From an uncultured bacterium (GTDB lineage: Bacteria > Bacillota_I > Bacilli_A > RFN20 > CAG-826), in contig CASGDR010000001.1 of assembly GCA_949300345.1 (NCBI GenBank), forward strand, positions 195,835 through 259,834: DNA of 64,000 nt. Direction: 5' to 3'. This document shows, in pieces, positions 9,304 to 20,606 of the stretch. Numbering within the stretch: the stretch's first letter is position 1; each line of letters begins with the position of its first letter. The notes below the pieces were generated by a model. The model was not told the DNA's origin and did no database searches. It saw nothing but the letters and a program-made list of their open reading frames with translations. The position numbers were made by a program, and so were the translations under genes.

Positions 9304-10872
9304 CTAAGCGATAAGGTTTTGATGGAGAGACAGGGTCTTGTTGTTGATGTCCAAATTATCTGCGAACGTGACAAGACGCTTCGATCCGTGCAGGATGGAC
9401 ACGGCGATGGAAGTCGCGAACCAGTTCTCGGAAATCTCGACATACTCATCGTCATAAGGAGCAATCTGGACGTCCTTCACGTCCGCTAGGCCGGTCCAAT
9501 TCTCGGCGTCGCCATAAAAGCACATCTTCGAATTGTAGTATGCCGTGACCTCGAACGGGTTGGGATTGTAGATTCTTATTTTCCAGGTCGATCCTGACTT
9601 GGAATGGATGAAGAGCGAAACGTATTCGGGAAGCTCATCCCCGGTCACGAAGCTGTTCATGAAATAGAACATGAAGGAGTCGATTCGGCAGCCACCCGTA
9701 TATGGGCCGTTTGCGTCGCTTGACATATACGTGAAAATTCCACAAACGTAATCGTTGCCATTGACGGTCACCTGATACGGGGAACCGCTTTGGCCGGCGA
9801 CGGCATCCATGTCCGTCCTGTAGTACCATCCGTTGCTCTCGAAGTCGGTCATTTTCCCAGAAACTTCATACATATACCCGTTCTTGTCGCCGGGATAGCC
9901 GAACGTCGTCATGGGATAGTTCTGCTCATAGAAATTGCCAATCTTTCCGTTCCAGCCCGTCGTGTTCCCGATGGGCTCACTGAGTTTGCAGCACGCCCAA
10001 TCCTTCTGGACGTTCAGATAGTATTCATTTTCGAGGTAGATGCGTTCTACGTCTACTTCGCCATATGGATATGAATTGCCGTTCCGCGCCGGATAGTAAA
10101 TGATTTCGTCAGGGAACCTCGGGTTGGAAAGGTTGTCCTCGTACCTTGTATCTGGATTTCCGTCCTCGTCCGTGAAGGTGTTCGTCACGTCACCATAGAC
10201 GCAGTGCCCAGCCGTTACGAGGAGGTCTGGCCCCTCAAGGAAAGCGGTGCCGATGAAAGATCTGTCTTCGTATTGACCATTGCTTCTGTTGTAAACGTTC
10301 TTGTAAATAGTTAGAAGAAATCCCGCATAACGATATGGCGATGACAGTGTATCCTCCACCATCACTCTGTCATCAGTACCGATAATTCCTCCTTCTGAAA
10401 GAGGGACTATGGTTCCGTCATCAACCAACAATGGGTCGTATCCCTCCGTATAGATGGAGACGGAGCCATCGGAGTTCACGAACGAGTGCACCTCAGCCGT
10501 TTCAGCCAATGGCTCGGAAGCACTCATAAGAGAATAGGAGTTGTCATCGTAGGCAAACTGACGATAGGAATAATCGTGCTCATCGAAATAGAAATAGTCT
10601 ACGGAGCCGTCCACAAGGCTTTTCGTGACCATGTTCCACGATTCCCTGGGTGTGGCGGAAACCAAGACCTCCGGCTTTTCCGTTGGAATCAGTGTGTCAG
10701 CTGGCATGGCATCCGTTTCGTCCGAAAATGATTGAGCGGCCTTCCGGGGAGAAGGCGTATCCCGCATATTTACCGAAGAAAGGGAATCGGGATTTATGCC
10801 GATGCCTGTTCCCGTGGTCACGAGAAAACCGAGTGAAGCGAAGACGGACAAGAAAATGACCCTGAGTTTCAT
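9304..10872 (-). CDS. Secreted trypsin-like (V8/glutamyl-type) serine protease, prophage cargo
   Basis: 522 residues. An N-terminal signal peptide (MKLRVIFLSVFASLGFLVTT) is followed by a propeptide-like stretch to about 170. The S1-type catalytic domain has His223 (LVTAGHC), Asp291 (KDWACC) and Ser362 (GQSGSP), and the C-terminal ~130 residues form a beta-rich tail. It should act outside the cell. Start codon overlaps the lipoprotein stop (ATGA) with GAGGAGGAAAG upstream. Its place between terminase and portal, with its own promoter and terminator, marks it as accessory cargo and not a structural gene. The substrate cannot be told from sequence. Confidence 0.85.
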   Translation of the reverse strand: MKLRVIFLSVFASLGFLVTTGTGIGINPDSLSSVNMRDTPSPRKAAQSFSDETDAMPADTLIPTEKPEVLVSATPRESWNMVTKSLVDGSVDYFYFDEHDYSYRQFAYDDNSYSLMSASEPLAETAEVHSFVNSDGSVSIYTEGYDPLLVDDGTIVPLSEGGIIGTDDRVMVEDTLSSPYRYAGFLLTIYKNVYNRSNGQYEDRSFIGTAFLEGPDLLVTAGHCVYGDVTNTFTDEDGNPDTRYEDNLSNPRFPDEIIYYPARNGNSYPYGEVDVERIYLENEYYLNVQKDWACCKLSEPIGNTTGWNGKIGNFYEQNYPMTTFGYPGDKNGYMYEVSGKMTDFESNGWYYRTDMDAVAGQSGSPYQVTVNGNDYVCGIFTYMSSDANGPYTGGCRIDSFMFYFMNSFVTGDELPEYVSLFIHSKSGSTWKIRIYNPNPFEVTAYYNSKMCFYGDAENWTGLADVKDVQIAPYDDEYVEISENWFATSIAVSILHGSKRLVTFADNLDINNKTLSLHQNLIA

Positions 10873-11285
10873 CGCACGCTTTCCTCCTCGATAAGACTTG
10901 TGTTGACGTATTGGAGTAGCATGTAACTAGCTTGGACAATAATTCTATCATGATAATCGGTATCGACTATCGAATAGACGGGAAGATATTTCTTGTCGTA
11001 GTCGTAAACATAAAAGTCAGCGACAACTCCATAAATGTAATCTTCCTCACGCTCGAACGTCTCGGCATCTTCCTCACGAATGATGAAACCGATGAGCTCA
11101 TCGCGCTTTCTTATGTCAATCTCGCCACCATAACCTGAATAATCGACATCTCCAAAGCGAAAGACCTGATCCATACTAAAACAGAAAAATGGAGAATTAT
11201 TGGTAGTATACTCGCTATGGTTTCCACATCCCGTTAACAGACCGACTCCAGCGAATAGGATTGTCAGAAAGCGAAAAGGTTTCAT
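10869..11285 (-). CDS. Lipoprotein, prophage cargo, function unknown
   Basis: 138 residues from the ATG at 11285, which follows AAAAAGGAGGTAGACAAA. Lipoprotein signal MKPFRFLTILFAGVGLLTGC ends in lipobox LLTGC, so it should be anchored on the outer face of the membrane. The rest is acidic and beta-rich and resembles no family I recognise. It is the first gene of a two-gene operon with the secreted protease and could be an inhibitor, immunity protein or partner of it; this is inference from pairing alone. Confidence 0.7.
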   Translation of the reverse strand: MKPFRFLTILFAGVGLLTGCGNHSEYTTNNSPFFCFSMDQVFRFGDVDYSGYGGEIDIRKRDELIGFIIREEDAETFEREEDYIYGVVADFYVYDYDKKYLPVYSIVDTDYHDRIIVQASYMLLQYVNTSLIEEESVR

Positions 11286-11307
11286 TTTGTCTACCTCCTT
11301 TTTAGAT

Positions 11308-11336
11308 AACATATCATTCATGAGGCCTTTTTTCAA
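11308..11336 (-). promoter_or_regulatory. Promoter of the lipoprotein-protease cargo unit
   Basis: On the minus strand TTGAAA (11331-11336) and TATGTT (11308-11313) are separated by 17 nt and lie about 25 nt before the lipoprotein start. A sigma-A-type promoter here would let the cargo be expressed in the lysogen independently of the late genes. Confidence 0.6.
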
Positions 11337-11379
11337 CAAGTAAATATTGACAAATGTATCGCAATATGATAAATGCGCT

Positions 11380-13038
11380 TCATTCAGTCATTGCCTCATA
11401 GTCCAACTTATACCTAGTCAAAGTCGCATAAGCGATAATAGTCGCTACCGTTCCATCTATCCTTTTTAGCCTTGAATTAAGCTTCGATGGCTGGATGTTC
11501 CCGTTCACATCGACCTTCGCTTGGGTATTGGCTAGGCACCACTTGATGATTGGGTTATTGTTATAGTTAAGTACGTGGTTCCTTAAATCCGCCTCAAGCT
11601 GCTTCATGGGTTCAGAAAGTGTATATACGCCCTGTCTTATCTTCACCATCTCAAAGCCCATGTCCTCCATTTCCTTCACCCAATACTGGGAATTCCAAGG
11701 ATCATAACCAACCCATAAAGGACGAATATCATACTTATCGATCATGCTTCTGAACCACTGGGTAACCAAACTGAAGTCATTTTGAGAGCCTTCCGTCAAA
11801 GTGATGTAGCCCTTCTCTACCCAAATGTCATAGGGAACATTATCTTCCTGAATTCTTTCCCTAAGCACATCGCTAGGCATGAAGAAATGGGATATTAAGT
11901 ATTTCTTACCTTCCTTTTCTACGTATAAGACTGCAGCAGTCAAATCGGTGGTCGAAGATAAATCAACTCCACCTATCGCATAACTTCCTCTCAAATCATC
12001 GATATTGAATGTGTCTTTGTTCTCGATGTCCTTGAAGTTGAGCCATGAGCCGTCCTCCGTTTGCTTGATATTAAAGTCCTTGCATAACATCGTGACTCTA
12101 GTCGCTAGGTCGTTCTTAGATTTGTTCATCAAGTCTTCCAAATAACTCATTTGCTTAATTTCGCCTAAGCTAGGGTTGCTCTTTATCCAAGTCTTGGGAT
12201 CGTTAAAGATCTCTTCCTGCGAGTCCTGGGTATATAGCCAAGGAAGCACACGTTCGTCATCAATCTCGCCTTTGATGATCTTCCTAGCGTATTCGAGTTT
12301 GGAATCAAGAAAACCTCCAACAGTCACGCCTTCCGTAGTGATGATGAATATCAATGGTTCCTTCTTAGTCGATTGAGATTGCTTAATCGCATCATAGACC
12401 TTGCTATCGGTCATCTCATGGACTTCGTCGATACATCCCACTTCGATGTTATAGCCATCCTTATTTTTACTTTGCGCGGACATCTTCTTGATCTTGGATT
12501 TGTTGAGAGAGCTTCTCTTGTCGTTCTTCTTCCCGAACTTGATGCAGAAGATGTTCTTACTAGTCCTCTTCTCTAGAGTTGGACTAGCTTCCCTCATGTT
12601 GTTTATCTCGTCGAAGAGGATGTTGGCTTGTTCACTAGTATTGGAAGCACATACGATATCGACACCACGAGAAAGGAAGAACTCCGCCAAGTCAATGCCT
12701 GCAATGAAGGTGGTCTTGCCGTTCTTACGAGCAATGAGCAATATGACTTCATTGAATCTTCTAAGCTTCGTATCGCTCATCTTGAAGCCGTATGAGACTT
12801 GAAGAAAAGCCTTCTCCCACAACGTGAGCTTGAATGGCTGACCTGTGAATGGGGATTTGGTGTGTTTGCAGAAAGTCTCGATGAAATCTATGCGGATGGA
12901 ACCTGGCCTCAAATCGAAGAAATACCTAGGATTAGAGAGGTCTTTGTATAGATTGTCGAGGGTTTTCATTAGTTCCTTGCCAACCAAGATCTCACCGCTT
13001 TTGACTTTCTCGTAATATTCCAAGAAGTAATTGTTCAT
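11380..13038 (-). CDS. terL: Terminase large subunit
   Basis: 552 residues with an N-terminal ATPase (Walker A IARKNGKTTFIAG, Walker B-like VGCIDEVHEM) and a C-terminal nuclease region with Asp/Glu-rich segments (GGVDLSSTTDLTAAV, WVGYDPWNSQYW). It translocates phage DNA into the prohead and cuts it. It overlaps the small subunit stop by 4 nt. Downstream come the cargo unit and then the portal. Confidence 0.93.
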   Translation of the reverse strand: MNNYFLEYYEKVKSGEILVGKELMKTLDNLYKDLSNPRYFFDLRPGSIRIDFIETFCKHTKSPFTGQPFKLTLWEKAFLQVSYGFKMSDTKLRRFNEVILLIARKNGKTTFIAGIDLAEFFLSRGVDIVCASNTSEQANILFDEINNMREASPTLEKRTSKNIFCIKFGKKNDKRSSLNKSKIKKMSAQSKNKDGYNIEVGCIDEVHEMTDSKVYDAIKQSQSTKKEPLIFIITTEGVTVGGFLDSKLEYARKIIKGEIDDERVLPWLYTQDSQEEIFNDPKTWIKSNPSLGEIKQMSYLEDLMNKSKNDLATRVTMLCKDFNIKQTEDGSWLNFKDIENKDTFNIDDLRGSYAIGGVDLSSTTDLTAAVLYVEKEGKKYLISHFFMPSDVLRERIQEDNVPYDIWVEKGYITLTEGSQNDFSLVTQWFRSMIDKYDIRPLWVGYDPWNSQYWVKEMEDMGFEMVKIRQGVYTLSEPMKQLEADLRNHVLNYNNNPIIKWCLANTQAKVDVNGNIQPSKLNSRLKRIDGTVATIIAYATLTRYKLDYEAMTE

Positions 13039-13382
13039 CTTTCCTCTACAGCCTTCTTGATAAATTCATCGAAGGCATCGTCCTCTTCAGTGACATCAGT
13101 ATCCAAGATGGAGTTAAGGGTCTTTATGATCCCTTGGTAGACGCTTAGCATCGATAGATAGGACTTCAAGTTGGGATTGGTTCTGGTCGTTCCTTTGTTA
13201 GAGACTTGAACAGTCCCTTGTTTCTTGATGGTCTTTTCCAAGCCTCTAAGCTCGATGGTAAGGAACGCCACCTTCTTAAGAAGCTCGTCCACCAAGGGGA
13301 GCTTGTCCTCGTTGCCATCCGAAAAGAGGCCCTTGAGCCTCCCGTATTCCTTGTAGACGCAATTGCTGTCGTCGTTACTCAT
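13035..13382 (-). CDS. terS: Terminase small subunit, P27-like
   Basis: 115 residues, helical, with TRTNPNLKSYLSMLSVYQGI resembling the conserved NP-x-(5)-Y helix of P27-type small terminases, and immediately upstream of the large subunit with a 4-nt overlap. It recognises the packaging site and recruits the large subunit. A second HTH protein at 18.7-19.3 kb is another candidate DNA-recognition factor. Confidence 0.7.
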   Translation of the reverse strand: MSNDDSNCVYKEYGRLKGLFSDGNEDKLPLVDELLKKVAFLTIELRGLEKTIKKQGTVQVSNKGTTRTNPNLKSYLSMLSVYQGIIKTLNSILDTDVTEEDDAFDEFIKKAVEER

Positions 13383-14025: not shown

Positions 14026-14445
14026 CTATTCCGCCTCCTTGTAGGCCCTGAAGAGGTAGGATTGGTCGAAGCCAAAGTCCCTATAGCCTTCCATGCACGT
14101 GTTGAGGTAATGGATGTCGGGAAGCATCACTCCCCTTATCCTCTCGTTCATGACGTAGACGAGCGCCTTGATGGGCTTGCCATTCAACTCAACCTTTAGG
14201 CATTCCTTCCTGTAGTGGGTCGGATAACCCTCGTATCTATCGAGCGCCCTTTCGTCCGCCTCGTCGATTTCGAATATCCCAAGCGGGACTTCTGCCCCCT
14301 TCTCTTCCTTGATGGTGAGGTAGTACCTGAACTCCAATGCCCAATCCTTGAGCATATAGGTGCCGACCTTCTTGGCGTTGGGGCACCTTCTCTCCATCTG
14401 CCTTAGGTTCAGATTCGAGCCGTAGGCCAAGTAATGCTTCTTCAT
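14026..14445 (-). CDS. Gamma-glutamylcyclotransferase-like (GGCT/AIG2) protein
   Basis: 139 residues with the GGCT signature: YLAYGSNLN near the start, then GIFEIDEADERALDRYEGYP, where the Glu/Asp-rich strand and YEG-P segment define the fold, and a late YVMNE strand. GGCT-type enzymes release 5-oxoproline from gamma-glutamyl amides. It follows an amidoligase gene by a single junction (14445/14446). The pair could therefore form and break gamma-glutamyl-type amide bonds; the substrate is unknown. GGAGGAGCG precedes the start. Confidence 0.85.
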   Translation of the reverse strand: MKKHYLAYGSNLNLRQMERRCPNAKKVGTYMLKDWALEFRYYLTIKEEKGAEVPLGIFEIDEADERALDRYEGYPTHYRKECLKVELNGKPIKALVYVMNERIRGVMLPDIHYLNTCMEGYRDFGFDQSYLFRAYKEAE

Positions 14446-15375
14446 TTATCTCGCTCCTCCCAATGTCTGCGTCGCTTCCCTGCTTCCGAATCTCCAAGCG
14501 CTGCATCCGTCCAAGGCGTGGGTCAAGTGCTCCCTGCAGTTCTTGAACTCGTCACCGATGAGACCCAAGCGGTTGAGGTAGGTCCTCATGGCGAACTTCT
14601 CGTTCTCGACCTGCGGCTTCTTGCTCGATGCGCATTTCTGAGCGAGGGCTTGGTGGTTGAGCGCCAAGGAGAGGACGATGTAGCTCCTGACCTTCCCGGC
14701 GTGGAGCTCCGAATTGAACCCCCTAAGCTCGACCGTGTGGTTCCCGGTGAAGAAGCTATGGAGGTTGAGGAAGTGGTATCTGGAATCGTGGTAATGCGTG
14801 TTTCTGGTTCCGTAGTAGCCGTCGTACCAGATGTCGGCGAGCTCCTCCATGGTCTTCGGGTGCTTCTTGTTGATCGAGGTCACGAGGTGCTCGTCCATCT
14901 TCTTGCAGAACCTCATCCTCTCCTGCTTGATTTCTAGAGCCTTGTAGAGGAGGTCGTTCTTTGAGGCGATGATGTTGATGAGATTCCTGATGGTCCTCGC
15001 GTCGTGGTCCGCCCCGTCGAGGTGGATGTGGATACCGCAAGAAGCGTTTGTGAACCCGCCGGTCTTTCTGAGCTGTCTAACTATCTCTTGAAGAGTGTTG
15101 ATGTCCTCGTCGTAGGTGAGGATTGGGCTCACTAACTCGCAGGAGTAATCCCTTGAGGCGCTGACGGTTTCCCCATTCCTCTTTGTCTGGCATCTTAGGG
15201 AGCCGTCGTACATGACCTTCCATTTCCTGCCGTCGGGCGCCTTGATGACCTTCGTGTCATAGTAGTCGTGTGCTTCCTCGATGGTTCCGCCAAGGTAGTC
15301 TGCGACGATCCTGCCGGCCTTGTTTCTGGTGAGCCCCGTGAACTCGATCTCGATGCCGAATCTTTCTTTGAACAT
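14446..15375 (-). CDS. Amidoligase (COOH-NH2 ligase, glutamine-synthetase fold)
   Basis: 309 residues. Signature blocks of the amidoligase family appear in order: FGIEIEFTG near residue 5, the middle ELVSPIL (about 85), GIHIHLDG (about 113) with metal-binding His residues, and the late VELRGFNSELHAGKV. These enzymes join an amine to a carboxylate using ATP. Starts after GGAAAGAGGCAAGACACT. The partner gene is GGCT-like. Upstream 15376-15671 is a non-coding gap with no feature I can support beyond a weak hairpin near 15395. Role in a prophage is unknown: peptide, protein or cell-wall peptide modification are all possible. Confidence 0.85.
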   Translation of the reverse strand: MFKERFGIEIEFTGLTRNKAGRIVADYLGGTIEEAHDYYDTKVIKAPDGRKWKVMYDGSLRCQTKRNGETVSASRDYSCELVSPILTYDEDINTLQEIVRQLRKTGGFTNASCGIHIHLDGADHDARTIRNLINIIASKNDLLYKALEIKQERMRFCKKMDEHLVTSINKKHPKTMEELADIWYDGYYGTRNTHYHDSRYHFLNLHSFFTGNHTVELRGFNSELHAGKVRSYIVLSLALNHQALAQKCASSKKPQVENEKFAMRTYLNRLGLIGDEFKNCREHLTHALDGCSAWRFGSREATQTLGGAR

Positions 15376-15671: not shown

Positions 15672-16055
15672 CTAGCGGTACTTCTCCCCCAGCCTGTTCG
15701 CCCAGGCCTCGGTGTAGAAGGAATAGTAGTCGACGTTATGCTTCTCCCTCCACTTGCCGAAGCATCCGCACCAGACAAGGCTAGGCAACCCGATCACGAA
15801 GAGCCATAGAGGACCTAGGATCAGGCTTTGGACCGTGTGCCCGTACTCGTGCTGGACGAGCCTCAAATCATATGGCGTTCTGGTGAAAATGAACATGCCA
15901 AGGCTAAGCGAACTGCCTAGCTTCCAAGTGGTGATCACCGCCCCATGGAACGCCCTGTGCTTTCTTGCTGCCAAAAACAAAAAGAGAACCACCCCTAGCA
16001 GGTTCTGGATGATTCCCCATGTCCATTGGACCAAGTAAAAAAGAACTTTCTTCAT
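15672..16055 (-). CDS. Small membrane protein with HEYGH motif
   Basis: 127 residues. Two hydrophobic segments (about 8-28 and 45-58) precede LVQHEYGHTVQSLILGP and a third hydrophobic stretch that ends VWCGCF; the C-terminus has YYSFYTEAWANRLGEKYR. HExxH is the zinc-metallopeptidase motif and Glu in TEAWAN could be a third ligand. It matches an uncharacterised membrane family widespread in Bacillota. Overlaps the HNH gene by 4 nt. Protease activity is not proven by the motif alone. Confidence 0.65.
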   Translation of the reverse strand: MKKVLFYLVQWTWGIIQNLLGVVLFLFLAARKHRAFHGAVITTWKLGSSLSLGMFIFTRTPYDLRLVQHEYGHTVQSLILGPLWLFVIGLPSLVWCGCFGKWREKHNVDYYSFYTEAWANRLGEKYR

Positions 16056-16387
16056 CTAATTTCCTCCTCCCTGACTTCGGCCAAGTCGCCGTCTTCGTTC
16101 CATCTGTATTTAGGCAATCTGCCGCCGAACCTTCCATGCATCTTGTTGTGGCATTCCTTGCAGAGAAGGAGGAGGTTATCCGGGTTCAAGGCGATAGATG
16201 GATCGTCCACGTTATCAAGCGTCAGATGTATCTTGTGATGGACCTCCGTCCCGGGCTTTCCGCAGATCTCGCATCTTCCCTTTGCCCTCAAAATAACCTC
16301 TTCCCTTACCTTGTGCCACGTGTCCGACTTGTAGAAGTTATGCAGACGCTTCGGCTGCAGCCTTCTTGAGTTCATTCGCTTTTCCAT
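16052..16387 (-). CDS. HNH endonuclease
   Basis: 111 residues with the complete HNH core: CEICGKPG, VHHKIHLTLDN, NPDNLLLLCKECHNKMHG, giving two Cys pairs for zinc and the His-Asn-His catalytic set. The YKSDTWHKVREEVILRA lead is typical of phage HNH proteins near the packaging genes, where they can assist terminase cutting. The start at 16387 overlaps metK by 50 nt; a second ATG at 16375 is possible. Confidence 0.85.
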   Translation of the reverse strand: MEKRMNSRRLQPKRLHNFYKSDTWHKVREEVILRAKGRCEICGKPGTEVHHKIHLTLDNVDDPSIALNPDNLLLLCKECHNKMHGRFGGRLPKYRWNEDGDLAEVREEEIR

Positions 16388-17453
16388 CCGCGTACTCCCA
16401 AGGATAGACGTCGTTTCCGAAGTGCCCGTATTCGGCGAGCCTCTGGTACGAGATATCCTTCAATCTAAGCTCACTTATGATGTTCTTCACCGAGAAATCG
16501 AAATGCCCGTTCACGAGCTTGAGAAGCTCCTCGTCGCCGATCTTTCCAGTCCCGAAGGTGTCGATGCTCACACTGATGGGATTAGCAACGCCAATCGAAT
16601 AGGAAACTGCCACCTCGCATCTATCGGCCAGTCCCGCCTTGACGATCGACTTGGCGACGAACCTTGCGTAGTAGGCGCCGCTCCTGTCGACCTTGGTGCA
16701 GTCCTTGCCGGAGAAAGCGCCGCCTCCGTGATGGGCGACTCCTCCGTAGGTATCGACCATGAGCTTTCGACCAGTCAAACCGCTGTCGGCATAGGGACCG
16801 CCGCGATAGAAAGCCCCAGTCGGGTTGATGAGTATCTCGATTCCATCGAGCGTCTGGCCAAGCAACGGGATGAGTACCTCTTCCTTGATGATCCTCTTCA
16901 CTTCATCAAGCTTGATGCCTTTCTTCGTTTGGGCAGAGACCACGATGGCCTTGATGGCCTTTGGCTTGCCATCGACATAGCGGACTGTCACTTGGCATTT
17001 GCCGTCCACCCCTAGGACGTCCATGTACTTCTCTTTCCTGATGGCTTCGATTCGCTTGGAGATGTCCCTTGCGATCACGTATGGAAGAGGCAGGAACTCG
17101 CCTGTCTCGTTTGTCGCGTAGCCGTACATGATCCCTTGGTCTCCCGCACCATCCTTGTCGACGCCCTTTGCGATGTCCCAAGATTGGGCCGAGACCTTGG
17201 TGAGGACGACGAAGTTGTCGAAGTAGCCAATGTCGCGCAAGACCCTCTTCGTCACCTTCTCGACGTTCACATGGGCCTTGGAGGTGACTTCCCCGAAGAC
17301 GAACACGAGGTTGTCCTTGACGGAGCATTCGATCGCCACCCTGCTGTTTTTGTCCTTGAGGAGGTATTCATCCAAGATGGCATCGGCGATCTGGTCGCAT
17401 ATCTTGTCCGGATGTCCCCTGAACACTGATTCGCAAGTCACGTATTTTTCCAT
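16338..17453 (-). CDS. metK: S-adenosylmethionine synthetase, prophage-borne
   Basis: 371 residues from the ATG at 17453 (AAGGAT upstream), close to the ~390 of cellular enzymes. Family motifs are present: GHPDKICDQ, GAGDQGIMYGYATNE, and GGGAFSGKDCTKVDRSGAYY with Cys where cellular enzymes have Pro (GKDPTKVDRSAAY). It makes SAM from methionine and ATP. It stands 66 nt downstream of a DNA methyltransferase gene on the same strand, so it probably feeds phage DNA methylation. Its 3' end overlaps the HNH gene. Confidence 0.92.
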   Translation of the reverse strand: MEKYVTCESVFRGHPDKICDQIADAILDEYLLKDKNSRVAIECSVKDNLVFVFGEVTSKAHVNVEKVTKRVLRDIGYFDNFVVLTKVSAQSWDIAKGVDKDGAGDQGIMYGYATNETGEFLPLPYVIARDISKRIEAIRKEKYMDVLGVDGKCQVTVRYVDGKPKAIKAIVVSAQTKKGIKLDEVKRIIKEEVLIPLLGQTLDGIEILINPTGAFYRGGPYADSGLTGRKLMVDTYGGVAHHGGGAFSGKDCTKVDRSGAYYARFVAKSIVKAGLADRCEVAVSYSIGVANPISVSIDTFGTGKIGDEELLKLVNGHFDFSVKNIISELRLKDISYQRLAEYGHFGNDVYPWEYADGKANELKKAAAEASA

Positions 17454-17519
17454 AATCAAAATCCTTGTTTCCTTTCAAAATTCATTGTTTTTCCCTTAAG
17501 CCGACTGGTTGGAGTAACT

Positions 17520-18752
17520 TTAAGATAAGGCTCCTTCGTCACCTGAAGCCTTGGCGTAATCCCCAATCTGGCTCAATGGCGTTCTTTTTCCATCCCTAAA
17601 CAAAAAGCACCCATCCGCTGAGTGCCTGAGGGCGATGTATCTCTTGACGATCACGTCGGCGTATCTCTCGTCGAGCTCCATCATGAGCGTCTTCCTTCCC
17701 AGCTGCTCGGCTGCTATAAGGGTCGTCCCCGAACCGCCGAAGAGGTCGAGTACCGTCTCGCCCTTCCTCGAGGAGTTGAGCATCAGCTTCGATATGAGCT
17801 CGATGTTCTTCTGCGTCGGATGGAGGCTGTTGTTCCTCGGCTTGTCGTATTCGAGGATGGTGTCCTGCGTCCTGTCGTCAACGAAGTAATGCGCTGCCCC
17901 CTCCTTCCAGCCATAGAGGCAGGGCTCGTGTCGCCATTGGTAGTCCTGCCTTCCGAGCACAAGCGAGTTCTTGACCCAGATGAGGCACTCGGCGAGCTTG
18001 AACCCCGCCTCCTTGAATGCGTTCCTGAAGTTGAGCCCCTCCGTGTCGGCGTGGAAGCAGTAGATGGCTCCGCCCGTCTTCGTATGCCCGTACATGTTCT
18101 TGAAGGCGGAGAGTAGGAAGTTGTAGAAGTCCCCGTCGCTTTGCCTGTCGTTCTGGATCTTCATGCCGTCCTGACCCTCGTAGTCCACGTTGTAAGGAGG
18201 ATCGGTCAGGACCAAATCGGCATCCTTCCCGTCGCATAGCCTGTCCACGTCCTCCTTCAAGGTGGAATCGCCGACCATGAGACGATGGCTTCCAAGAAGG
18301 AAGATGTCCCCTCTTTTCGAATAAGGAGTTTCATCGATCGCTCCCTCCTCGTCGAAGCCGTCGTCTTTGACGTCATCAAGGCTCGCCTCCAGTTCTTCGA
18401 AGCCGAACTGCGTCATGTCGATGTCCGAGATCCCCTCAAGCTCTGCCTTCAGCTTCTCGAAGTCCCAGGTGGCAAGCTCGTTCGTCTTGTTGTCGGCCAG
18501 CCTGTAGCTCTTGATCTGCTCTTCGGTCAGATCGTCGGCTATGAGGCACGGGACTTCCGTCATCCCCAGCTTCTTGGCGGCGAGAAAACGGGTATGCCCG
18601 ACCACTATCACGTTGTCCTTGTCGACGACAAGTGGCTGCTTCCAGCCGAATTCCCTTATGGAATTGGCGACGGCGTCCACGGCGGATTCGTTGTGCCTTG
18701 GATTGTTCCCGTAGGGCCTAATCTCCGCTACGCTCTTCATCACTATCGTCAT
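17520..18752 (-). CDS. ParB-domain DNA methyltransferase
   Basis: 410 residues from the ATG at 18752, placed after GAGGAAGAAC. Residues 1-90 are a ParB/sulfiredoxin-type domain (VAEIRPYGNNPRHNE, VVDKDNVIVVGHTR). Residues 145-400 are a beta-class methyltransferase with catalytic TDPPYNVDY (184-187) before the SAM-binding DLFGGSGTT (336-344). This motif order fits N6-adenine or N4-cytosine methylation. Such fusions are common in phages and can protect the genome from restriction. The target site is unknown. Overlaps the upstream HTH gene; metK follows. Confidence 0.9.
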   Translation of the reverse strand: MTIVMKSVAEIRPYGNNPRHNESAVDAVANSIREFGWKQPLVVDKDNVIVVGHTRFLAAKKLGMTEVPCLIADDLTEEQIKSYRLADNKTNELATWDFEKLKAELEGISDIDMTQFGFEELEASLDDVKDDGFDEEGAIDETPYSKRGDIFLLGSHRLMVGDSTLKEDVDRLCDGKDADLVLTDPPYNVDYEGQDGMKIQNDRQSDGDFYNFLLSAFKNMYGHTKTGGAIYCFHADTEGLNFRNAFKEAGFKLAECLIWVKNSLVLGRQDYQWRHEPCLYGWKEGAAHYFVDDRTQDTILEYDKPRNNSLHPTQKNIELISKLMLNSSRKGETVLDLFGGSGTTLIAAEQLGRKTLMMELDERYADVIVKRYIALRHSADGCFLFRDGKRTPLSQIGDYAKASGDEGALS

Positions 18753-19263
18753 GTTCTTCCTCGGTGACCGATTCGACACTGCTCCATTCCTCCTTCCTGT
18801 TTTGGCTCTCCAGCTTCTTCTCCATGAGCCTCAGGTCCTCGTACCTCTCGCTGTATTCCTTGCCGAACTTCTTCGTGAGCAGATAGGTGATGGCCTTGAA
18901 GTCCGGGCCCACCTGTTTCTTGACCCTATGGACCTTCTTCTTGGTCTTGCCGTCCTTCTCCTCGATGAGCTGGTCCTCGTCGACGGTCTCGTAGCCCACC
19001 GCCTTCTTGTACATGGCGTTCGCCAGGTCCTTCTTTAGCTCGTATCTGGATTTGTCCATCGCCTCTTGGATCTGAGGGTATCTGTGCTTCAGGTTGGTGA
19101 AGGTGTGCTCCTCGATCTTGAGGTACTTGCACATCTCCCTTTGGGTGACGAGCTTCTTGGAGCAGTCCGCAATGAAGGCTAGGACTTCCTCGAGCTTGCC
19201 GTCTTTCTGCCATTGCTCCCAGATGTCCGTGGTGTATATTCGCTTGTTCTTTCTCTCCGGCAC
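18718..19263 (-). CDS. HTH DNA-binding prophage protein (phBC6A51-type, small-terminase-like)
   Basis: 181 residues from a GTG at 19263, chosen because AAAGGAGGCAAGGGAAG precedes it and a terminator lies just upstream; a longer frame from an ATG at 19314 would start inside that hairpin. The N-terminus KRIYTTDIWEQWQKDG is followed by a helix-turn-helix (LVTQREMCKYLKIEEHTFTN), then a charged region and an acidic tail. Similar to HTH proteins called transposase-like or small terminase-like in Bacillota phages. Sits directly after the ACGT repeat array, which it might bind. Confidence 0.65.
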   Translation of the reverse strand: MPERKNKRIYTTDIWEQWQKDGKLEEVLAFIADCSKKLVTQREMCKYLKIEEHTFTNLKHRYPQIQEAMDKSRYELKKDLANAMYKKAVGYETVDEDQLIEEKDGKTKKKVHRVKKQVGPDFKAITYLLTKKFGKEYSERYEDLRLMEKKLESQNRKEEWSSVESVTEEEHDDSDEERSGD

Positions 19264-19290
19264 CTTCCCTTGCCTCCTTTCCTCGACATG

Positions 19291-19318
19291 AAAAAAGCCC
19301 ACAGATTTCTCCATGGGC
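19291..19318 (-). terminator. Terminator between repeat array and late genes
   Basis: Minus-strand stem GCCCA/TGGGC (19314-19318 with 19297-19301) followed by six T. It lies after the repeat array and only 28 nt before the GTG of the HTH gene, leaving no room for a promoter. Late transcription must therefore read through it, or start elsewhere. Confidence 0.65.
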
Positions 19319-19496
19319 GTGGTTAGTCCTTTTCAATATCTCGCATGGTAATCCTACTAAATCTTGACAGCCTGACGCAATATTTCAGGATGTGTCATCG
19401 TGTGTCAGAACGCTTCAATTTCCAGGCAGCGGAGATTTCAAGGAAGATAACTATCTTTTTTGCTGTATACGACCTGTCTTTCGCTTGGAGATTTCG

Positions 19497-20182
19497 ACGT
19501 ATTCCAAGCTAGCCGTCTTCAGACAAAATCTTCCTCGTAGTCTTTCACCTGTCTTTACCTCGAAGACTTTCAACGTGGCTAACGTATACGATGAGTAAGA
19601 CGGAATCTTAAGACGTTTCCCTCACGTCAGATCACCTTGAACCACTTCAACGTAGCGCACGTATACCTGACGCAAGACGGAGATCTCGGGAAATCCCTTC
19701 ACGTCGAAACACGTTGAACCAAGCTAACGTACCTAACGTATGGGCTGACGTAAGAGAATATCTTCCGATAGATACACACACATTCGGCTTCTGACGGGAG
19801 TTCCAACGTGAAGGCATAATTGCCACATAATCGAGGAATAAGCCCACAAAATCGCCTGTTTTTGCCATTATTTTGCCTAATCTTTATCTAACCAGAAGAC
19901 AACATCTAATTCTAAGCATTCACGCTAGATTCTTTCGACGTGCCACGTCGGATTGCGAGGTAGACAGAATCTTCGAGAAAATCTCTCCACGTCGGTTTAC
20001 GTCAGGGATCCCGACGTGATTCGACGTACCGCCTGACGAGACGAAATCCAGACGGGAATCCCTTCTGACGTATTCACCTTGAAAGAGTTCAACATACCTG
20101 ACGTAATCGCCAACGTCTCTCCAATCTCCAAAGAAAAAGGGCCACGTCGAATCACGTTCAATCCATACAACGTAACTGACGT
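19497..20182. repeat. Non-coding array of ~77-bp imperfect repeats rich in ACGT
   Basis: About 0.9 kb without a supported gene. ACGT occurs 26 times between 19497 and 20182 where about 3 are expected. In the first cluster, copies repeat at 77 nt: 19573/19650/19727, 19582/19659/19736 and 19624/19701. A second cluster near 19938-20182 has steps of 76-79. Within a unit, ACGT sites are often spaced 9-12 bp, one helical turn. Dyads recur, for example ACGTT-N10-AACGT (19711, 20154) and ACGTCAGGGATCCCGACGT (19999-20017). An AT-rich stretch (about 19815-19920) divides the clusters. Candidate functions: operator array, packaging or replication site, or an RNA antitermination leader. Confidence 0.85.
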
Positions 20183-20192
20183 AGCCCAGAAT

Positions 20193-20606
20193 CTACACTT
20201 CCAGAAAATCGATGGCCGGCTTTGCATCGTCAAGGAGCCTATAGACCGAGCTTCTCGACAGATGCATGGCGCCCATTATCTCATCGTAGGTCATGAAGCT
20301 GATGTGCCTGTACATGATCGCAAGCGCCATCTCCTTGTCCTCCAGCTTTTCGAGCGAGTTCGTGGCCTTTAGCTTCAAATCGTCAAGTTTGGCTTCCTCG
20401 TCCTTTATCTCCATCTCCTTGTCCAGGGCCTTGAGGACCCACTTCTCGAATGGAGCCTTTCCGCTTGGCTGCGTGTGTATCCGCTCGCCATAGACAGGTC
20501 CGGAGATCGCATTGGACTGCCTGCGGTAGAACTGGAGGAGCCCATAGTCCTGGTGGATCTTGTCGCTAAGTTCCCTTATTTCGTCGAGCAGTTGTTTCAG
20601 TGTCAT
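20193..20606 (-). CDS. Phage late regulator-like HTH protein (ArpU/DUF1492-like)
   Basis: 137 residues. A helical N-terminal half with a basic linker, then a C-terminal sigma-region-4-like HTH: ALAIMYRHISFMTYDEIMGAMHLSRSSVYRLLDDA. Proteins of this size and layout close the early region in Bacillota phages and act as late-gene transcription regulators. It ends with TAG right where the ACGT array begins; the same frame stays open for 90 more codons into the array. Overlaps rusA by 41 nt. Confidence 0.7.
   Translation of the reverse strand: MTLKQLLDEIRELSDKIHQDYGLLQFYRRQSNAISGPVYGERIHTQPSGKAPFEKWVLKALDKEMEIKDEEAKLDDLKLKATNSLEKLEDKEMALAIMYRHISFMTYDEIMGAMHLSRSSVYRLLDDAKPAIDFLEV

Follow-up and report, generated by a model that had tools for sequence, protein, structure and literature searches.

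The pac site of phage P1 is under methylation control. Previous studies on SPP1 and SF6 have shown that pac contains sets of short repeats (boxA, boxB and boxC) to which the small terminase binds, that the SPP1 site overlaps the promoters and the start of the terS gene and carries direct repeats, and that the DNA-binding domain of SF6 TerS binds pac repeats with little sequence preference; autoregulation of terS has also been reported (PMC4737164, PMC6316719). HK97 TerS requires one site of 15 bp and places an N-terminal arm in the minor groove; the way in which small terminases locate viral DNA remains a matter of debate (PMC11331095). The late activators Ltr and Alt of phi13 and TP901-1 bind direct repeats just upstream of a late promoter, and their operators consist of four such repeats within about 110 bp (PMC13123087).

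The window, that is, the whole stretch of 64,000 nucleotides analyzed here, contains a prophage with a non-coding array of 77-bp period between its early and late genes (Table 1). All genes around the array lie on the minus strand and read in the order primase/helicase, RusA, phrog_36 regulator, array, terS-like gene, ParB-domain methyltransferase, SAM synthetase, HNH and, further on, phrog_1066 and TerL. Judging from sequence and gene order, portal, protease and capsid genes appear to come after TerL; PF04860 matches the portal. Like SPP1 and SF6 pac, the array is found at a late promoter and a terS gene and contains short repeats, but it extends over several hundred bp and stands outside the gene, and its 77-bp units combine two motifs and include inverted half-sites. 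With the HK97 cos system, the prophage shares the same broad packaging machinery (HK97-like head genes and an HNH endonuclease), and the N-terminal arm of HK97 TerS is reminiscent of the arm of the array-linked terS-like protein (phrog_309). In contrast, HK97 TerS does without an array, and the HK97-like TerS candidate of this phage is phrog_1066 instead of phrog_309, the neighbor of the array. As at the Ltr and Alt loci, a small regulator gene lies directly upstream of the late promoter and direct repeats are present, here with a 10-bp period; the 77-bp array, which is independent of regulator type, is an extra element.

Table 1. Coordinates of the array and of its neighboring features in the window, listed in the direction of transcription
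Feature	Position	Strand	Remarks
Late transcriptional regulator	20193..20606	-	phrog_36, PHROG E=2.8e-12; weak DUF1492, sigma-region-4-like HTH
Array unit 1 (> 9 > 13 < 10 <)	20130..20187	-	also folds as intrinsic terminator of the regulator operon
Array unit 2	20064..20117	-	five M1 half-sites
Array unit 3	19962..20028	-	four M1 half-sites and two M2 dyads (19976-19986, 19962-19972)
Degenerate unit	19897..19952	-	M1 at 19944-19952 (+), 19934-19942 (-), 19921-19929 (+); M2 dyad 19897-19907
Central element	19813..19877	-	GGC/AAWATT phased at 10-11 bp, curved-DNA-like
Array unit 4	19700..19763	-	M2 dyad 19753-19763 and five M1 half-sites
Array unit 5	19623..19686	-	M2 dyad 19675-19686 and M1 half-sites
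Array unit 6	19556..19608	-	M2 dyad 19598-19608 and M1 half-sites; 46.3 bits
Promoter-side tail of array	19445..19531	-	M2 dyads 19521-19531, 19445-19456; M1 half-sites at 19493-19511
10-bp-period direct repeats TGACACACGATGACACAT..	19378..19410	-	candidate operator of late regulator
Putative late promoter	19347..19370	-	inferred from alignment with relatives
Intrinsic-terminator-like hairpin between late promoter and terS-like gene	19291..19318	-	conserved
terS-like protein (phrog_309)	18718..19263	-	RBS 19273-19280; probable GTG start 19261-19263
ParB_N + N6/N4 DNA methyltransferase	17520..18779	-	
S-adenosylmethionine synthetase	16338..17459	-	
HNH endonuclease	16052..16387	-	
phrog_1066, second candidate small terminase adjoining TerL	13035..13382	-	model: helix, beta hairpin, helix
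Large terminase (TerL)	11380..13038	-	

A preliminary description of this DNA had drawn attention to an excess of ACGT palindromes, and rightly so. Between positions 19497 and 20182 there are 26 copies, whereas no other 686-bp segment holds more than 8. Shuffling the array itself by dinucleotides left 5.1 copies on average and at most 11 (n = 500). The ACGT positions and 77-nt recurrences given there are exact, and the statement that the array is non-coding was borne out. A second cluster, for which a spacing of 76–79 had been proposed, does repeat, at 78. The 77-bp period itself is real but reaches further than claimed, from 20187 to about 19445, when a second motif (M2) is followed. What did not survive is ACGT as the repeated unit, because it is just the most frequent core of TACSTTRRA, a directional half-site that is also common in ACCTT versions. 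The array had also been described as following a late-regulator-like gene and ending at a terminator before the next gene. The regulator is indeed adjacent, but the order had to be mended to regulator, array, late promoter and terS-like gene, and two terminator-like hairpins exist: one is unit 1 of the array itself, and the other lies beyond the late promoter. Tandem Repeats Finder did not detect the array in the window because the copies are too diverged.

The half-site was modeled by expectation-maximization over ten arrays. This motif, M1, is 9 bp long (T-A-C-[G/C]-T-T-[A/G]-[A/G]-A) and occurs in about 190 copies over the ten arrays, about 30 of them in the window. The core position is G or C (69/29%), such that ACCTT replaces ACGT in about 29% of the half-sites. 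At 8 bits, half-sites in the window are 40 times denser inside the array than outside. On the coding strand they follow the spacing > +12 > +9 > +13 < +10 < +33/34, which sums to 77 bp, and each unit contains paired half-sites, two forward and two reverse. These spacing classes fit 107 of 189 neighbor pairs, compared to a random mean of 9.2 and a maximum of 19. M2 is an AGA-N5/6-TCT dyad that sits in the 33-bp gap between units, and its copies recur at 76–78 bp from 19763 to 19445. Long arrays (window, G050, G189 and G040) contain a central element (GGCAAWATT) in their middle that is absent from short arrays. In the window this element is phased at about 10.5 bp (S/W power of 17.9 versus a null maximum of 9.5), a pattern from which we infer curved or bent DNA. 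The terminator in unit 1 comprises a GGGC..GCCC stem and a T run (−28.8 kcal/mol, z = −6.7); its equivalent in G050 is weaker (z = −1.4).

Searching with the terS-like protein identified ten array-bearing prophages in gut-type Bacilli genomes (window, G050, G040, G038, G010, G189, two in G201, L049 and G077). In all ten the array occupies the same place upstream of the terS-like gene. A genome-wide search found it as a single copy in its own genome. Among 279 genomes of the order, the unit model gave no convincing array beyond this prophage family and a decayed remnant in G197; other weak matches were judged to be chance or coding. The core pattern found only arrays of this family in 395 genomes of the class, and none of its 24 matches in IMG/VR is an array. 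One of these (L103) was rejected because the repeat codes for part of a tail-type protein. At the DNA level, phage and plasmid collections yielded no match to the array, and literature searches did not find such an array described. A protein-binding array near terS is a known kind of element, but a 77-bp grammar with two motifs is, as far as we could find, undescribed. Homologous loci with terS-like proteins of 39–54% identity have a gap of 93–158 bp or no array upstream, and a search of these loci did not find a comparable repeat array. Such relatives may use another site. TerL and portal genes are missing from the bins of seven array loci. Contig breaks are the simpler reading of this gap, since one locus (L049/G619) has phrog_1066, TerL, portal and protease; for the same reason, we dismissed the possibility that the remaining array loci represent satellites lacking structural genes.

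Which protein may read this array? The only gene families common to the array loci are the terS-like protein and the phrog_36 regulator, in a count that has gaps where contigs end or where G040 is decayed. The terS-like protein matches phrog_309 (PHROG E = 1e-15), and the best matches of its structure model in BFVD are terminase small subunits (E = 1.9e-4). However, this model is mediocre (pLDDT 68.6), and comparison with the PDB gave no significant match. An in-frame TGA had suggested an alternative genetic code for the terS-like gene; this was rejected, as the codon precedes the start that is probably used. An N-terminal arm of the type [KR]NKR[ILV]Y (RKNKRIY in the window) is present in 10 of 10 array loci and in none of 24 array-less homologues, and a supported branch (99/96) sets the proteins with an array apart from the others. 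Both trees unite the array-bearing proteins in a single group, so this link represents one evolutionary association and not ten.

These observations lead us to propose that the array is a DNA site bound by phrog_309 for the initiation of packaging, similar to pac or cos, possibly with a role in terS autoregulation. We assign this reading a probability of about 45%. According to this model, the array, which heads the late operon, would form a nucleoprotein site on double-stranded DNA, where many copies of phrog_309 bind the paired half-sites and, in long arrays, draw the two half-arrays together around the phased element in their middle. The bound protein would label the genome and bring in the large terminase, so that packaging starts there. 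Since the late promoter lies between the array and the gene, it may also limit terS expression. The constant location of the array, the spacing grammar and the linkage to one terS subtype are consistent with such a role, as is the comparable position of SPP1 pac; phrog_309 is the candidate binder. On the other hand, two terS subtypes of about 60% identity with different recognition helices accompany near-identical arrays (G201a and G201b), the array-less homologues manage with a short gap, and the half-sites face both ways, unlike the direct repeats expected for a single ring. The low sequence preference of the SF6 TerS DNA-binding domain and the presence of a second small-terminase candidate beside TerL also speak against the packaging reading. 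This second candidate, phrog_1066, was rejected as a P27/HK97 TerS, with only a weak fold resemblance to HK97 TerS.

The phrog_36 family is the other constant partner, and it too separates array from array-less loci (95/97), which counts against the packaging reading. The regulator gene adjoins the array, which in turn immediately precedes the late promoter, as would suit a long upstream activating region from which the bound regulator loops to, or spreads into, the promoter. However, it is the separate block of 10-bp repeats that occupies the Ltr/Alt position immediately upstream of the promoter. Such repeats are found in 11 of 12 loci (best lag 10; 0 of 2000 shuffles), including array-less relatives, and their sequence differs among three regulator types, whereas the array motif stays constant over regulators that share as little as 32% identity. 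Furthermore, the remnant in G040 retains an array and a terS gene with no regulator in view before the contig edge. The array also adjoins early replication genes. Its half-sites are arranged like iterons, some of them inverted, and are accompanied by a phased AT-containing element; such a layout could serve an initiator at an origin or a centromere-like protein at a partition site. Against this stand the two replication modules, both of which occur with and without arrays, and the absence of an initiator shared by every array locus. The protein with the ParB domain is a methyltransferase, and G010 has none next to its array. In a weak test, GC skew switched sign close to the host junction (26–28 kb) and not at the array. 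Both readings are weakened because neither the array nor its motif varies with the three regulator types or the two replication modules; we regard an origin or partition site and a regulator-bound activating region alike as improbable. Among the preliminary proposals of an operator, pac or origin array, the protein-binding nature stands and the pac-like version fits best.

Another protein, either a host nucleoid or DNA-structuring protein or a phage protein, might instead bind the array, for example as an insulator or as a repressor-spreading site between the early and late operons. The two motifs suggest two proteins, the central element is dispensed with in short arrays, and the array separates the early and late operons because unit 1 is a terminator. 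This alternative is unlikely, but not negligible: sites of a host protein might show up elsewhere, yet similar arrays did not appear in the 395 class genomes or in viral contigs, and the loci share no further phage gene family. The earlier suggestion of an RNA leader or a put/qut-like element that promotes read-through into late genes fared worse. A terminator does precede the terS-like gene, and the region folds with z of about −3, but this value is equal on both strands, a pattern that inverted DNA repeats would produce. An alignment of 14 units contains no consensus pairs, the G/C cores would mismatch in RNA in 18 of 29 inner inverted pairs, and Rfam did not match the array; conserved RNA secondary structure, as known from put/qut sites, is not supported. 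The array also follows a terminator and lies upstream of the late promoter, and we consider an RNA function very improbable. Equally hard to sustain is the proposal that the phage ParB-methyltransferase controls the site by acting at ACGT. Genes for this enzyme and for SAM synthetase do come after the terS-like gene, but the repeats lack a strictly conserved target of the P1 type, their core being G or C. Moreover, G038 and G201b encode a different methyltransferase, none lies beside the array of G010, and array-less relatives possess the enzyme too.

Returning to the packaging reading, a regularly multiplied site with a defined half-site, a linked protein subtype and array-less natural controls would make sequence recognition by a terS-like protein directly testable. 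A stronger version, which we consider doubtful, would be a new architecture for genome recognition: a modular, two-fold-symmetric array of 77-bp units and two motifs flanking a phased bend, with an array-specific terS-like reader distinct from the canonical TerS beside TerL. If this were true, the phage would use two small-terminase-type proteins, one marking DNA at the array and one running the motor. Should the array not serve packaging, it would still be an undescribed element at the early/late boundary in phages of gut Bacilli.

Several minor observations concern the surroundings of the array. Two proteins of the phage may be small-terminase-like: phrog_1066, next to TerL, and phrog_309, encoded where the late operon starts. 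Decayed array copies occur beside unrelated genes in L080 (G197) and L012 (G040), and the copy in G197 has no recognizable phage gene adjoining it. In G201a and G077, cargo genes (3 kb and an HTH gene, respectively) have inserted between the array and the terS-like gene and thereby separate the two; the corresponding stretches are about 2400–5000 in L048 and about 1050–1650 in L046. Apparent cargo is also found between TerL and portal (9304–11339 of the window), in the form of secreted-protease-like and lipoprotein-like genes. The packaging region contains a putative amidoligase next to a protein that, judged by eye, resembles gamma-glutamylcyclotransferase (14026–15375), and this pair is conserved in G010, G201a and L049/G619. 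Finally, the hairpin between the late promoter and the terS-like gene is found at the same place in L011, L013, L049 and L052, and relatives of the late regulator show a weak match to a Q-like antiterminator family; together these two features make read-through control similar to that at lambda pR'/tR' possible.
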